A DNA stretch of 64,000 bases. Origin: Thermothelomyces thermophilus ATCC 42464. Taxonomy: Eukaryota; Ascomycota; Sordariomycetes; Sordariales; Chaetomiaceae. Positions 13,390-21,564 of this stretch are shown here, piece by piece (position 1 is the stretch's first letter; each line of letters starts with the position of its first letter). The translations under genes and the position numbers were made by a program. Below the pieces are notes generated by a model. It was not told where the DNA came from and made no database searches. It worked only from the letters and a program-made list of their open reading frames with translations. The stretch spans positions 2,728,001 to 2,792,000 of the forward strand of contig NC_016473.1 in assembly GCF_000226095.1 (NCBI RefSeq). Direction: 5' to 3'.

Positions 13390-14800
13390 ATGCTGGCCGC
13401 TCATCACGACCAGGAAAACATCTACACCCAACAGGCCACCGCCTCGAAGCAGCAATTGCAAGCCAAGACCCCCGGAGTTCGCTACCCGAAGACCCCCCTC
13501 AAGGTTCCGCTTAACGACGAGAACAAGAATCACGGGTTTCAGGGCAAAGGTGTTTTACAGGGTAAAGGGCACAATGAGAACACTCTCACAGTTGGTAAGG
13601 GAGCCGACACCCTCGGCAAGTCTGGCAAGATTGGGATGGTGACGCCGGCCGGTGAGTCCTTCCACGCCCGGTTGATTGTTTCTTTCCTAACGGAACCCAG
13701 CTCCAAGAACTGGCCGTGCGCCTCTCGGAAACAAGACCACCAACGCGAAGGCCAGGGCAACACACCAGACTCCCGGGACCAAAGCCGTCGCCCGCGACCT
13801 GGAAAAAAACGCCTCCAAGCCAATTGCCATTGTCAAGCCGAACCCCTCTGCACCCCAGGCCGAATCTTCGAAGCTTGCGGTCCATACCGACAAGGATCCA
13901 CTTAAGGAGGAGGATATTGAATACGCCCCACCCAAGCCGAAGGATCTCCCTTACGAATCCGACGTATTTCCCGACGGTGTCTTGACCTTTGAGGGGTTGA
14001 AGCCCGAGAACTTGTTCAAGGGCTACTACCAGTATTACTTCAACCGCGTGGACGACGAAGGCAAGACAGCGGTGGAGCGGGACATGGAAGAGCGGCAGAA
14101 GCGAAGCTTTGAGCGTGGTGAAGAGCAGATCCGGAGGGACATGGACGAGTTTATATGGAATGTCGGCGACATTCCCGAAGGCAAGAATCTGTTGAAACAA
14201 AACGTCGGGGTGCCATCTGGCGCCACAGCGACATTCGGCAATAAGGTGACGCGTTTGGCGCCCAAACAGCCGTCGACGCTCGCATCCAGGAAAGCAGCAG
14301 CCGCTCTGGCAATGCCCGCTACCTCATCCGCCGTTTCGCAAGCGAGGTCGACCAGGACAGCCGCTCCTTCTGCCGCCAAGGCACCGACAAAAGGATTTCT
14401 GCTGCCAAAGCGGAAGCCCTTGCAACCGGTCTCCCAGCCCACCACCATTCCGGTCCGGGAACGGGCGCCTGCCGTCGCAGCTTCGCGCAGCACTCTAGGG
14501 TACAACAAAGGCCGGTCGGTATCCTCTGCTGTCAACGGAACCAGCAGCGCCGCGACCGCCCGCCAGCTCCAGGGCCAGGCAGGTGGCAAGCCTCGCACAT
14601 TGGTGCGATCTGCCAGCACAGCATCCTCCAGCTCTGATACCACCATCACACCCGCCCGTTTCGCCCAGTCATCAGAGACGAAGAAGCCGGATTTCCTGTC
14701 CATCTTCGACGGGGAGGACGAGGAGGATACCTTGGGCGGAGGAATGCCGCCCATGGATGATGACAATGATGATTTCCAGCTGACAGTCAAGTTTGAGTGA
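13390..14800 (+). CDS. Securin-like protein (Pds1/Cut2-type separase inhibitor candidate)
   Basis: Exons 13390-13651 and 13701-14800 with a 49-bp intron (TCCTAAC branch) give 453 residues. I know it as a conserved ascomycete protein without a firm name. Three features suggest securin. There is a canonical destruction box RAPLGNKTTN at residues 93-102 (RxxLxxxxN) and a KEN-like 'DQENIY' at residues 7-12. The motif DIEYAPPKPKDLPYE at 159-173 resembles the pseudosubstrate of yeast Pds1 (DIEIAPQ...LPY), which plugs separase. The rest is disordered: a basic N-terminus with TPGVRYPKTPLKVPLNDEN, a middle with LKPENLFKGYYQYYF, and an acidic C-terminal end (DGEDEEDTLGGGMPPMDDDN). Securin would hold separase inactive until APC/C destroys it at anaphase. 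The function is inference; the gene model is solid. Confidence 0.8.
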
Positions 14801-15935
14801 AATGGGGGTTGGGACAGGATTATCACTATGCGGGAAAGTCCGCAGGCGTTGGGTTCAGGGCGTTATCGAAGTTGTAGACATATTCTTCTCCTATTCTTGG
14901 TCGGAAATGGTTTCACACTCATGGGAGGCAGTCGTCCCTTTACGTCTTTCTTTTTCGTTAGCAGCAATTCACTAGGAGCCGCAAGCCGTTGTTCGAACTG
15001 TCAGCGAGCAGCGACTGGATAGGCGCGGTGGCAGCGATAGCGGGAGAAGCAGAAACCAAAGGCATTGCTTCGTTATTGATTGTGTTATTAAGGATGAGTT
15101 ACACATCGGTTAGGTGCGATATCGAGATTGGACAACCAAGCAGTTTGTGTCGGCTGTGGCGTGAATCACTTCGGTTTTTCTTTCTTTTTCTTTTTTTTCC
15201 GGCAGTCTAGTGCATGAAGCTGTTAATCTGTACTTGATAGTCTGCAGACGCCTCCTGTACTCCGTGACATACGGATTACAGTGTGTACTTGTACATACAT
15301 ACAGTACATTGTTGGCGAAGGTCAGTGTAATCCGGACTATGTAAGGTACCTTGTGGAATCGTCAAGATGCCGCAACAAGACAGAAGCCCCTCATTGGGTG
15401 ACGCAAGCTCCCCCAGCCTCCTTTTCATATTCTCGGTCTCCATTCAAGCCACTGCACATAAGCATTGAATGGCGCCCGGGCCACCTTGGCACTGGCAACG
15501 CCAACCCAAGTTGGGTTTAGCGACACAATGGCAAGTCGCGACTTCACACGAGCTGGCGGATCCTTTAACTCTCAACTTCAATCAAGGCCGGCAGATACGC
15601 TCAATCTTTGATTTGGGCTCTTGGAGCCTCTTTTCTCTGAACAGACCAAAAAGTGACGATTGTCGCGCACATCCCCACCGCATTGTGGTGCCTTTTCCCT
15701 TCTCTTTTCTAACGCTCAGCCGCTTTTGCGACCGCTCTTAACCCACGGCGCAGCCCTGCGACGGGCCGCTTTGCTTGTCGGCAGAAGCCTTGTCGCGTGC
15801 ACGGCACATGAATCGTCCTGCATCCACCGCAGCCCAGATCTGTCGACCCCCAATGTATCGGGACTCCTGTCATCGCCGGAACTAGAAACCATGGTTGGAG
15901 GATACTGGGAGCGGTACTAGTCACCCCTTCTCGCC
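14801..15935. other. 1.1-kb gap before SET1
   Basis: Same-strand spacer with the 3' end of the securin-like gene and the SET1 promoter/leader. Pyrimidine-rich stretch at about 15173-15200 and short TACATACATACAGTAC repeats at about 15292-15307. No gene recognised. Confidence 0.45.
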
Positions 15936-18900
15936 ATGACTCGTCCAGCTGGTGCGAGTTTCGCCCAGTTTTTCCCTGACGCGCCCCGGGAACGCGAGAG
16001 GGCGAGAATGAAAGCGCAGGAATCCCCGTCGGCTCACCCTGGCGAAGCCAATCAACAGCGCACCCCCCTCAACCCTTCGGCGTCTTCTCATAGTGACGAA
16101 GGGCCTCGTACTGGCTTCGCATCGAGATCCCACCTCAATGGCACCGGTCCTCATACTGCACACCCTCCGACGGAAGACATCGAGTCGCTCACCGGAGATA
16201 CGATCAACACCGGCGGGTCGGCCAGCTCCCATACCAGCGCAAGCTCCTCGGTCTTTAGTGCTGCGGCGCGGCCGAGCGCACCGGGCGCTGTGAAACTCCC
16301 ACATACCCAACCCACCCCGCCTACCGCCATCACCTCACCGTCGTCATACCTATCTACAACTGTCCCTGCCAAGGCGCAGCCGACCACTCCTTGCCGTGCC
16401 GACGGAGTAGAGGGACCCGTACCGATGCCTAGCGGATCTGTCCCTGACGCCCCGGCTATCGAACGCGTGCCTGCACGAGACCCCTCTCGCTCGATCAAAT
16501 GCGTAAAGCGCACGTATGATCCTCTTCTGGATACATCGCTTTCCAGCTCCGAGAAGAGAAAGGCGAAACCGATATACAAAGAGTTTGGATTGGTATGTAC
16601 ATATGCTTGATAATCTCACACTGAGGGGGGAGCGTCATCTCGATTCTGAGTCAGTTGGCTAATGCTGTGCATAGGACGACGAAGATGACGCTCCCCCCTC
16701 AGATCCCCGCCTAGCAAAAGGCGGTCGGCTCAACTACATCAATGTCGACTTCCACCTTCCGAAGGCCCGGTTGCGCCATGCGCCCTACAATCTCAAGCCG
16801 TACAAGTATGATCCGAAGACGTCTTGCGGGCCTGGGCCTCCCACCCAGATCGTCGTCACCGGGTTCAACCCCCTGATTGCGTTCTCCAAGGTTACTGCCA
16901 TCTTTGCCTCTTTTGGCGAGATCGCCGAGAGCAGCAACAAGATGCACCCAGACACCGGGAGTTACTTAGGTTTCGCTACCTTTCGTTATCGGGATTCGAA
17001 ACCACACCGCTCACGTCCGTTCCCGATCTCCGCTGCCGACGCAGCGCAGCGCGCCATTCGAGCCATGCACGGGAAGCGGATAGAGGCCAACACAGTCCGT
17101 GTTGAGTACGATCCAGAGGGCAAGAAGAGCTCCCGCATGCTGGAGGAGGCCCTGAAGAAGGAAAATGAGGCGTCGCACAATGCGGCCGAGCCGAAGATTC
17201 CCACGGGCCCAAAACCCAAAGACATCATTCCCGGCCCCCCTCCGACCGCGCCCAAGGGCCCTGCGGCGCACCGTGGTAGCCTAATCAATGTCCAGGGAGT
17301 CTGGGTGCCGAAGCCGAGGCTGGATACAATCATCGAAACTGAACCCATCGCGAATCAACTCAAGCACGACCCGTACATATTCGTAGCCCACGAGCATGTC
17401 CCCGTCATGCCGACCACCATCGCCCATATGAAGCGGCGTCTTAAAACGTTCATGTTTGAGGACATTCGGGCGGACAGGACGGGCTATTATATTATCTTTC
17501 GCGATTCGGGATTCGGCCGCTCCGAGGCCGAACGATGCTTTCGGTCAGCGAATCACACCACTTTCTTTACCTACACCATGGTCATGGACCTCCACGTCCA
17601 CGGAACCCTCGGCAAGGCGTCACGTCCCGTCGATACTCGGCGGCGTAGTCGCACCCCAGACCGGAGACACGGTGAGGACACCCGATCGTATCGTGAACAT
17701 GATCGCAGCAGGCGCGAAGAAGAGCGGGCAAGGCGCGAGGAAGAGCGAGCCAGGCGCGAGGAACAAGAGCGTCGCCGGCGGGAGGAAGAAGCGGACCTCG
17801 AGGAGGAGAAGCGACAGCGCGCCAAGAACTTTGACCCGGTGCTGGAGGCCACCGACGTGGTTCTGCGCGAGATGAAGGAACAGCTGATCAAACACATCCG
17901 TACCAAGATCGCGGCACCGGCGCTCTTCAACTTCCTCGACCCTGTCAATCACATAGCCAAGCGGCGCCAGCTAAACCTCGAAGACCCCCAGAACGCCGGA
18001 CTTCCCCCTATCTTGCTTGATGACTTCGAGGACAGGTCTCCGGTTGGGACTCCGAATTCCAGGGCAGATCCCATAGAACGGCGAACCGCCCGTCTCGACG
18101 TGTCCACCCTGCCTCGTATCCGCAAGGTCAAGAATGCCGGACTGAATGCGCGAAAGCACGGCTTCAACGACCCATTTGCGCGGAATCGGCCCGCCGCCAG
18201 GCGCACAGCCTTCCGGTCTCTGCATTACCGGCTGAGGAGCGACAGCGAGGGCGAGTCCGATGATGAGGCTGAGAATACGACGCTGTTCGGCAGAGACACG
18301 GAAGAGCCCGAGTCTCGACCTCGGAGCCGGATGAGCTCAGATTTTGAGGCCGAAAAAGACGAGTTTGCAACCTGGGGACCTGGCGAGGATGACTCCATGA
18401 CGGAGGCCAGCTTTGCGCTGGGTGATGGCTCCGGGCTACCCAAGAAGCGGAAACTTGACCTTCAGGTCGAAACGGCCATCAAACGGCAGAAGAAGACAGA
18501 CGAGGAGCTGTTCGGAATCACCATTGACCGTATCGAGACCGAGTTTCCGTCGAGGGAAGCCTCCGAAGACACCTTGGTTCGCGATGCCGAGGCTGCTGAG
18601 GAGAAGGACACCGACGGCTCCCGATTGCCGACACCTTTACCTCAAGGAGCCAAGGCCAGGAAGAAGGCGCCCGCCAAGCCCAAAAAGAAGTCCAAGAAGC
18701 AGCTCTTTGAGGAGAGGGAAGCCCTCAAACGGCAGCAGCAGGAGATCTACGAGAGGGAAGCGGAGGCCCGGCGGTCGGAAGATGTGGACGAGGCCAAACC
18801 GACGCCCGAGTCGGAGGCTGAGCTCAAGAAACCCGGAGCGGAAGAAGAGAAGGCAGATCTGGACGAGAATATGTATCCATCAGAGAAAGTTTCGGCTCTC

Positions 18901-19954
18901 GAGCTTCCACAGGATTTCCGGTTCGATGTGGCAACGTTGGAGGAGCTGGCGCTCGGAGAGGCCGATCAGCCAGATCTTGCAAAGCTCCAAAAGAAGTTTG
19001 GTCGTGGGAAGCTCGAAGACCCTGAGCTGTGGTTGTGGAGGCGGAACCGCATCCGGGAGCTGAACTCGGCTGACGGGACGTCGAAAAATCCGGTTCGCAT
19101 TGAGGGCTACTATGTCCCGAACCCCACTGGCTGCGCCCGAACCGAAGGAGTCAAGAAGATTCTCAACTCGGAGAAGTCCAAGTACCTCCCCCATCATCTC
19201 AAAGTCAAGAAGGCCAGGGAGGAGCGTCAGGCGCAGAACGGCAAGAGCGCAAAAGATTCTGTTCTGGCCGCGGCCGAGGCCGCCCGACTGGCAGCCGAGA
19301 GCCTTGTCGCCAAGGGCAACTCGCGCGCCAACCGTGCAAACAACCGCCGGTTCGTCGCCGACCTGAATGACCAGAGAAAGACGCTCGGCCAGGATTCGGA
19401 CGTCTTGCGGTTCAACCAGCTCAAGAAGCGGAAGAAACCGGTCAAGTTCGCGCGATCGGCGATCCACAACTGGGGCCTATACGCGATGGAGAACATCCCC
19501 AAGGACGACATGATCATCGAGTACGTGGGTGAGGAGGTTCGGCAACAAATCGCCGAGCTTCGGGAGCACAGGTACCTCAAGAGCGGCATCGGCAGCAGTT
19601 ATCTCTTCCGAATCGACGACAACACCGTCATCGACGCGACCAAGAAGGGCGGCATCGCGCGGTTTATCAACCATAGCTGCATGCCCAACTGCACGGCCAA
19701 GATCATCAAGGTGGAAGGCAGCAAGCGGATCGTCATCTACGCGCTCCGAGACATTGCGCAGAGTAAGTTTCCGCCTCCCCCCCTCTCCCATCTTGCGTGC
19801 ATTTTTGTCATATTGGACACGTCGACTGACACCAGTCATCAATTGAACAGACGAGGAGTTGACGTACGACTACAAGTTCGAGCGCGAGCTTGGCAGTACA
19901 GACCGCATCCCCTGCCTGTGCGGGACGGCCGCGTGCAAGGGCTTCCTCAACTGA
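15936..19954 (+). CDS. set1: SET1, histone H3-Lys4 methyltransferase (COMPASS catalytic subunit)
   Basis: Exons 15936-16592, 16675-19762 and 19851-19954 give 1282 residues. It catalyses mono- to trimethylation of H3K4 from S-adenosylmethionine within COMPASS. Domains: an N-terminal disordered part; an RRM at about 278-366 ([20 protein letters not shown]...); the Set1-associated fold at about 440-530; a charged R/E-rich coiled region (residues about 560-610); an N-SET-type region near 1110; and a C-terminal SET domain at about 1142-1282 with [20 protein letters not shown], the [11 protein letters not shown] motif, an ELTYDYKF segment and a post-[16 protein letters not shown]. The start [13 protein letters not shown] matches family N-termini. 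Oddity: intron 1 and the start of exon 2 contain a perfect 20-bp inverted repeat (separate entry). Confidence 0.96.
16621..16702 (+). promoter_or_regulatory. Predicted hairpin spanning the 3' splice site of SET1 intron 1
   Basis: Positions 16621-16640 (in the intron) and 16683-16702 (in exon 2) are exact reverse complements over 20 bases, including a run of six G paired with six C. The 42-base loop holds the CTAAT branch-like site (about 16660), the acceptor CATAG at 16670-16674 and the first exon bases. A stem this GC-rich should be very stable in the pre-mRNA and could present or hide the splice site. The complementarity is seen directly; any role is inference. Confidence 0.7.
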
Positions 19955-21298
19955 GTGCCGGGACAGTTCCTGCCAGCCATACATACCTGCCTTAGAACCT
20001 GTAATGTTTGCCTGTTTGTGTTACCACTACACACTTCACGGGACTACCTTGTTTGGCGGCTTGCGACGACCTTGGGGGCCCTGGGGTTAGGAAAGCCGTT
20101 GCGATGTGTGTTCGGCCGCGCGCCGGATCAGGTCTAGGCGAGCTTGCTTGCAAGGTGACCGTGGCCCGGAAAGAGTACCGGGCGTTTCAAGTAATTTACA
20201 CTGCCCCATGCGGAGTAACGAAGGGAAGGATTCATGGCCGCGCCTCCGTGCGATTGAATGCAGGATGACGGGAGGGAGTGAGTGCCGGTTGGGCAGGTGG
20301 TGATTTGTCTCTCTTTTGCCGCCCATCTTGAGTCGAGGGGCGGCAGAACGGAGGAGGCTTGCTGACTAGACGGGCTCCGATTTTGATCAGCGGAGTATCC
20401 ACAGCACAATTTTACCACGTAGTCTTTTCCACATGTTTGGTTGATGGTTGTTGTGCTTGGATTGTGTGGTTGTGGGTTGAGAAACCAGGCACCTCTCACC
20501 TGGGTGGGCTGTCGAGCGACTGATGAACCCTTATTTACTGTACATGGCGTTGGTGGACGGGGGAAAAAGAAACGAGAGAGAGTTGAGTTCGTCGGTCATG
20601 TAAAGCATGTTGGTGTTTGTGTGTGGCTTAGATGGTTGACCTGTACTGGTAGACCGGTTGAGGTGATCTTCATAGTATCTTCTGATAGACTCGGCAAAGG
20701 TGAAAATTGCCTTGGACGTTTAGTCCGTCCTTGTCTGAATGGTCTAATAACTCTTGGGCTAATTAAAGAATGGACCGTCCACTCAACGAAGAATCCCAAG
20801 CGCATTCTTCCCGTGAGACTGCGCGAGAGCACCCGACATTGAAGCCCAGGCCTCCGCAGGCATCAACGTTGGTCGGTGGTGGAGGGCTAATTACCTATTA
20901 CGAATACCTATTAGGGTAGGGTGCGGATCATTTGGAGGTTGGCACCAACGAGTTCGTGATGATGCTGTTCTTTCTTTGTTCTTTCTTTTTATTTTTTATC
21001 TTGTTTTTAATTCATCTTTCCCCATTTTCCCGTTCCTTTCTTTCTTTTTCTTTTAAAAAAACATTGCAAGTGACATGGCCAAGTTCTGTAAATGTTCTTC
21101 ACAGGGACTGCTTTCGTTTCTGTTCAGCCATACGCAGTCACCCTGGAGAATCTGACACTTTACGAACTATCTTGGCAGGCATCAAGCCTTCGTCGTTGAA
21201 CCAACGATGCGGCACAGACTCGGCTTTGATTTAAGCCACTCCGTACATACGTGCGTTGTTTCGCTTGCCGAGAACTGATGGCAACAGTAGCAGCCGAA

Positions 21299-21392
21299 TG
21301 CTTCCCTACATATGACCTAGGTAGGGAAGCAACGACCTACCTTAGCCTACCCTGGTAGGTAGGTACTTACTTCACTTAGCTACCTACCTACC
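21299..21392. repeat. Inverted repeats of CCTA/TAGG type
   Basis: An 11-bp stem pairs 21299-21309 with 21321-21331 (loop 11). A 12-bp stem pairs 21354-21365 (GGTAGGTAGGTA) with 21381-21392 (loop 15). Both are exact. They lie about 0.8-0.9 kb upstream of VMA1. Confidence 0.75.
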
Positions 21393-21524
21393 TTAGAAAG
21401 TGAGGCAAGAATACTCCCTAAGGTATTCCGCACTTGCTAATGGTAGCGAATGCGTGCAGTTTCGTGCATGTAATAATGAGGGTTCAGAGGATAAACACCC
21501 TGCTTACGCTACATACCTACCTAA

Positions 21525-21564
21525 GGTATGTATGTATGTAGGTAGGTAGGTAGGTAGGTAGGTA
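21525..21564 (+). repeat. TATG/TAGG tetranucleotide microsatellite
   Basis: About three TATG units run into about six TAGG units. Immediately downstream, GTACAGTAC (21562-21570) and GTACTGTAC (21583-21591) form another exact inverted repeat. Confidence 0.8.

Follow-up and report, generated by a model that had tools for sequence, protein, structure and literature searches.

The first intron and the second exon of SET1, the H3K4 methyltransferase of COMPASS, are linked by a perfect 20-bp hairpin that is almost certainly a conserved functional RNA structure. Comparison with relatives makes it very likely, as far as sequence can tell, that the hairpin is an old pre-mRNA structure kept by selection. 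It quite probably acts on the splicing of intron 1, and the explanation that we favour overall, with fair confidence, is that of an old, selected hairpin serving as a brake or gate on this intron. Structural control of SET1 splicing had been proposed by a sequence-only reading of the same DNA; the structural half of that proposal is well supported as conserved, and the effect on splicing is one that we infer.

In the window (the whole 64-kb stretch of DNA analysed here), SET1 lies on the plus strand and is predicted to have three coding exons, a model read from splice signals and homology. Exon 1 (15936-16592, MTRPAGASF...KPIYKEFGL), placed by its sequence and by homology of the joined protein, would be followed by an 82-nt intron in phase 0 (16593-16674), which has a GTATGT donor and a CATAG acceptor and whose position matches that in spliced relatives. 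Exon 2 (16675-19762) was assigned from its reading frame and homology, SET_assoc, N-SET and SET domains being found on the close relative P0001; beyond intron 2 (19763-19850), exon 3 (19851-19954) was placed by splice signals and homology. The joined protein is 98% identical over its full length to P0001, a SET1-like protein of Thermothelomyces heterothallicus. When intron 1 is retained, the reading frame stops after five intron codons (VCTYA). Exon 2 also contains an imperfect 21/24-bp tandem repeat (17710-17791) coding for an Arg/Glu-rich stretch. Upstream of SET1 lies a 369-aa reading frame (13691-14800), for which Pfam gave a sub-threshold DIX match alone and which is reminiscent of a fungal securin.

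The intronic arm of the hairpin (CTGAGGGGGGAGCGTCATCT, 16621-16640) is the exact reverse complement of the exonic arm (16683-16702), with 100% identity over 20 nt, just as the sequence-only reading had stated; its description of a 42-nt loop holding a branch-like site and the 3' splice site proved equally accurate. The branch-like sequence is GGCTAAT (16657-16663), with the branch A assumed at 16662, and the 3' splice site in the loop is the CATAG at 16670-16674. Counted from these signals, the exonic arm covers positions +9 to +28 of the 3' splice site and +21 to +40 of the branch A. It is coding, as had been claimed, and comprises the last base of a Glu codon, the codons of DDAPPS and the first base of an Asp codon. 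The intronic arm read in frame gives EGGASS, at intron codon 11, and 20 nt separate its end from the stop in the branch site (16640-16659). Two near-repeats, ATCTC-ACA-CTGAG (16613-16625) and ATCTC-GATT-CTGAG (16637-16650), overlap the ends of the intronic arm.

The earlier judgement that such a repeat is very unlikely to arise by chance was borne out, as every other perfect inverted repeat in the window (loops of up to 200 nt) is 14 bp or shorter. Under the same loop limit, the remaining inverted repeats of 13-14 bp all belong to a tract of four-base repeats (GGTA/CTAC type, in both orientations) downstream of SET1 (21354-21564). In 60 third-order Markov simulations of the 64-kb window, the longest inverted repeat reached 14 bp, and 20 stretches of the same contig (200 kb) held one of 16 bp (AT-rich, with a loop of 187 nt), one of 15 bp and none longer than 16 bp. 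A search of the 38.7-Mb genome that allowed up to 3 mismatches returned the two arms and at least two other sites, both with 3 mismatches. The RNA from 16553 to 16742 folds at -77.3 kcal/mol (z = -6.66), and none of 200 shuffled sequences was equally stable. At 37 C, 17 of the 20 stem pairs have a probability of 1.0 and two of 0.98-0.99, with the innermost (16640-16683) at 0.48; the isolated 20-bp duplex is worth -43.2 kcal/mol at that temperature and -35.8 kcal/mol at 50 C. A scan of 15900-20000 against Rfam found no family at the hairpin, its sole hit being a sub-threshold dauA match (E 0.43) on the minus strand elsewhere in the gene.

The age of the structure was judged from relatives compared as proteins, a comparison that covers amino-acid changes. 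Exon 1 is joined to exon 2 in 86 of the 120 SET1 relatives listed, and in these 86 the residues before DPRL are most commonly DDAPP or DDVPP; the exceptions are DDTPP, DDDPP, DDPPP, DDASP, NDAPP and one-residue shifts. The named species among these relatives are presumably Sordariomycetes. The exonic arm is under coding constraint, so the intronic arm would be the partner that follows. An intronic arm was first found in the annotated protein of Triangularia setosa (P0046), which has 17 more residues than its relatives, reading as intron 1: KEFGL is followed by VCTPDTHILEGGASSCC and then by EGQDDAPPK, with EGGASS at intron codon 10. The gene model of P0046 seems to use a donor within the intron and is probably wrong. 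Within P0046, the intronic arm can pair with the exon over 20 nt, one of the pairs being G-U. A search with residues 166-205 of P0046 alone gave three candidates and no relative beyond P0046 itself.

A profile search with exon 1 yielded 231 proteins at E <= 1, of which the best 120 are exon-1 frames running into intron 1 (from jgi, lgn, ena and ncbi). For each intron tail we asked if the bases allowed by its amino acids can hold the reverse complement of Asp-Asp-[Ala/Val/Thr/Ile]-Pro codons, using an 11-nt pattern of whole codons in any of the three frames and tails of at least 12 aa; 15 of the 120 tails were shorter and were dropped, leaving 105, and donor sites were placed by hand for P0150, P0154 and P0239. 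A stretch compatible with pairing was found in 101 of these 105 tails from the best 120 of 231. Shuffled tails fitted 6.5 times on average and 11 times at most in 100 rounds, exon-1 stretches of the same length gave 0/105 in every control, and the reversed, complemented and sense patterns gave 1, 2 and 2 matches, respectively. The tails share ancestry and the shuffles ignore kinship, so the figure of 101 measures conservation rather than independent events. Matches fall in all three frames (44, 42 and 15, as in RGERHL, GSVIL and GGASS), which rules out a conserved peptide and shows that it is the nucleotide sequence that is conserved. A single long intron tail, that of P0046 in the EGGASS frame, was part of the query alignment (A1) and could have favoured this frame; it is the rarest among the matching tails (15/101).

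The 11-nt pattern had been shortened from 13 nt after a first result in which the differences of several misses were confined to the outer end of the pattern. That earlier test used looser base-by-base matching and tails of at least 14 aa, and 78/90 tails fitted it, with a shuffled mean of 5.1 and one match among the exon-1 controls. Its reversed control pattern matched 9/90 tails but 28/90 exon-1 stretches, and loose patterns can therefore fit conserved coding sequence. The four tails that do not fit the 11-nt pattern are P0158, P0159, P0160 and P0237; the first three are related to each other, and the exon that would match their tails reads Gln- or His-Asp-Ala-Pro, not Asp-Asp-Ala-Pro. The carriers of a compatible arm that have names are Chaetomium tenue (P0126), T. 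setosa (P0046) and Xylariales sp. AK1849 (P0187). In a midpoint-rooted exon-1 tree of the 86 full proteins and the 120 frames, 67 frames form a strongly supported clade (0.998) with no named protein inside it, which may be another class, perhaps Leotiomycetes.

These results do not bear out the recent inverted duplication of exon sequence that had been offered as the other source of the repeat: it fails because a compatible intronic arm is present in 101/105 usable tails, many of them from frames with only 38-46% identity in exon 1 to the nearest named SET1. Absence of the arm in close relatives was likewise not found among these tails, although the very closest, T. heterothallicus, T. fergusii and Corynascus similis, are represented by spliced proteins, which do not show their introns. 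A recent template-switch insertion, under which the ancestral intron would have been 58 nt long, was dropped as the cause of the present-day repeat once P0046, and after it 101/105 tails, had shown the arm.

Most tails allow more than one residue at the variable position of the exon and are uninformative; signs of covariation come from two informative lineages, at the level of amino acids. The tail of P0211 is compatible with Val alone, and DDVPP is the exon sequence of P0097, the nearest relative with a name (77.5% identity in exon 1). The tails of P0140, P0152 and P0182 fit Thr or Ile only and group with P0054 in an exon-1 clade (support 0.995), in which P0054 alone has a known exon 2, reading DDTPP; by plain BLAST, an Ala protein ranks first for P0182 (50%). 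Other tails disagree with their nearest protein, at lower identities than that of P0211: those of P0149, P0153 and P0175 fit Val or Ile only and the nearest named protein, P0008, has Ala (54-63% identity); that of P0155 fits Thr only and the nearest protein has Ala (49%); and that of P0135 fits Ala only, with Val in P0022 (64%), which would make a G-U pair.

Three frames span both arms, so that the arms can be compared within one sequence, many of the pairs being allowed rather than forced by the amino acids. Pairing is possible over 21 nt with one G-U in P0121 and over 26 nt with no impossible pair in P0154; P0138 also reaches 26 nt, at the cost of one mismatch and with one G-U. When the intron half of these frames was shuffled, 0/300 shuffles reached the observed score in each case. 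P0132, P0143, P0149, P0155 and P0175 were too short to score both arms and were left out.

The position of the arm relative to the splice signals is also shared. Forty-nine matching tails end in a Gly-stop that can mostly be read as GGC-TAA, and in 38 of the 49 this terminal stop lies 20-21 nt beyond the intron motif. On the strength of these 38 tails, the side of the branch site can be read as the fixed side of the stem. The outliers, at 38 and 90 nt, are stops other than the branch site; with both included, the stem-to-stop distance has a standard deviation of 10.2 (n=49), and the distance from the 5' splice site to the arm is then the tighter of the two in the same tails (6.1). Across all 101 tails, the 5' splice site lies 16-63 nt from the arm.

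According to the explanation that we favour, the intronic arm would pair with the opening codons of exon 2, leaving the branch site displayed in the loop, in most cases some 20 nt away from the stem. The folded stem would slow spliceosome activation or exon ligation, and opening of the stem would let splicing go ahead. As splicing parts the two arms, the stem could be effective only until intron 1 has been removed, the step of removal included, or in RNA that stays unspliced. RNA that retains the intron would yield a product ending at VCTYA and lacking the RNA-binding and SET parts; a gate of this kind would thereby determine how much of the H3K4 methyltransferase is made.

A brake or gate on intron 1 is the most likely role of the stem because the exonic arm covers the landing places of Prp2 and Prp22, as judged from footprints on human and budding-yeast spliceosomes rather than on that of this fungus. 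In the excerpts of PMC10208982 drawn on here, Prp2 is placed about 26-34 nt downstream of the branch A, a side on which human branching requires a minimum of 32-34 nt; in those of PMC7935899, the Prp22 peak lies at 10-25 nt of the second exon. The same excerpts of PMC7935899 report that a stem-loop cut Prp16 crosslinking while splicing still proceeded, and that a stem-loop between the branch and the 3' splice site was no appreciable hindrance to splicing. The stem in SET1 need not be a brake, then, and the chances that its net effect is inhibitory or regulatory rather than helpful seem to us about even. More tentatively still, and with some doubt, we suggest a new way of gating splicing, in which the exon folds back on its own intron and locks the landing pads of Prp2 and Prp22 in a duplex but leaves the branch site accessible in the loop. 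Binding of U2 would then be possible, and activation would wait until a cellular signal opened the stem, possible openers being temperature, a helicase or the Set1 complex itself. If this were true, the constraint would be old enough for filamentous fungi of several orders, perhaps classes, to share it, and it would tie the opening codons of exon 2 of SET1 to an intron.

The stem could instead help the accurate splicing of intron 1, by masking a competing downstream AG and exposing the branch site in an open loop. The stem does begin exactly at an AG (16683-16684, within the AAG at exon +8 to +10, which is perhaps a Gln codon in relatives), the branch site is predicted to be unpaired with a probability of 0.97 at 37 C, and cryptic 3' splice sites of budding yeast are enriched for stems, going by the excerpted text of PMC12350175. 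However, 20 bp far exceeds the length needed to mask one AG, and the authentic AG is already the first after the branch site. The predicted fold also runs counter to this role: the 3' splice site is mostly paired with other loop bases (unpaired 0.21), and the AAG to be hidden is masked only in part (unpaired 0.36). We consider a helping role unlikely.

It is also improbable that the hairpin serves autoregulation, with Set1 or its complex binding it through the RNA-recognition region and blocking the splicing of intron 1 when Set1 is plentiful. SET_assoc and N-SET are found on the close relative P0001, an intron stem-loop precedent exists in RPL22B (in the part of PMC4838235 that we cite), and excerpts of PMC5492175 and PMC5654745 describe budding-yeast Set1 as an RNA-binding protein strongly bound to SET1 mRNA. 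Both of these papers, in the same excerpts, nevertheless tie the binding of SET1 mRNA to co-translational assembly, and one of the two calls binding to nascent transcripts not sequence specific; a contact between Set1 and the SET1 hairpin would be purely hypothetical.

Template switching may have been the origin of the intronic arm, the near-repeats ATCTC..CTGAG that flank the arm being a possible trace of it. That template switching during replication both made the hairpin and has gone on transferring changes from exon to intron, with no function involved, is a different matter. Excerpts of PMC8794818 and PMC8604942 indicate that the process makes perfect inverted repeats and can maintain their arms. 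Against such upkeep, the 200 kb sampled from the genome hold no other perfect inverted repeat above 16 bp, and mutation cannot by itself explain an arm in 101/105 tails over distant fungi, nor a spacing of 20-21 nt in 38/49. We regard it as very improbable.

Even less credit can be given to the idea that the intron keeps a sequence motif, for example a protein site GGGGAGCGTCATC, which matches the exon only by coincidence. The core of the intron is alike in most tails, and common descent could be enough to preserve it. The match is nonetheless the reverse complement of the gene's own codons, also within single frames, and the Val-only tail of P0211 and the Thr/Ile-only tails of P0140, P0152 and P0182 are in line with the exon found in the named protein nearest to them. 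A small RNA overlapping the splice site, cut by Dicer from the perfect 20-bp stem, is the least probable reading, as such a stem is short for a Dicer substrate and a common spacing to the branch site would not be expected.

A perfect, deeply kept stem between an exon and an intron, with the branch site inside it, is an unusual and readily testable case of RNA structure constraining coding sequence, and the SET1 hairpin is a natural substrate for learning how spliceosomal helicases cope with structure at their landing sites. A counterpart is known from edited animal genes of the GRIA2 type, where a coding exon is likewise paired with an intron copy of its complement. These exon-complementary sequences serve editing by ADAR, an enzyme family that to our knowledge is absent from fungi, and their position relative to the branch site differs from that in SET1. 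Among the matches listed in our literature search, a hairpin in SET1 intron 1 was not named and control of SET1 dose at the level of splicing in filamentous fungi was not described.

The closest kinds of stem are known from budding yeast and from humans. The zipper and downstream stems of budding yeast (excerpts of PMC12350175) are, like that of SET1, fungal pre-mRNA stems at defined positions relative to the branch site and the 3' splice site, and some occlude cryptic 3' splice sites. They lie within the intron, whereas the SET1 stem has one arm in coding exon and both the branch site and the 3' splice site in its loop; a zipper stem lies between the 5' splice site and the branch site, and the 3' arm of SET1 lies 9-28 nt past the 3' splice site. 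In RPL22B, as described in the available part of PMC4838235, a pre-mRNA stem-loop controls the dose of the gene's own product, which the hairpin may also do in SET1; the RPL22B stem is inside the intron, has a demonstrated binding protein and belongs to a different class of gene, while the SET1 stem spans exon and intron. Conserved complementary regions of human genes (excerpts of PMC8052449) are likewise near splice sites and show compensatory changes. The search for them was confined to introns and 10 nt of exon, and they tend to avoid branch points, whereas SET1 has a short perfect stem that reaches 28 nt into the exon and keeps the branch point inside its loop. What is new in the SET1 hairpin, among related stems that were already known, is this exon-intron arrangement enclosing the branch site.
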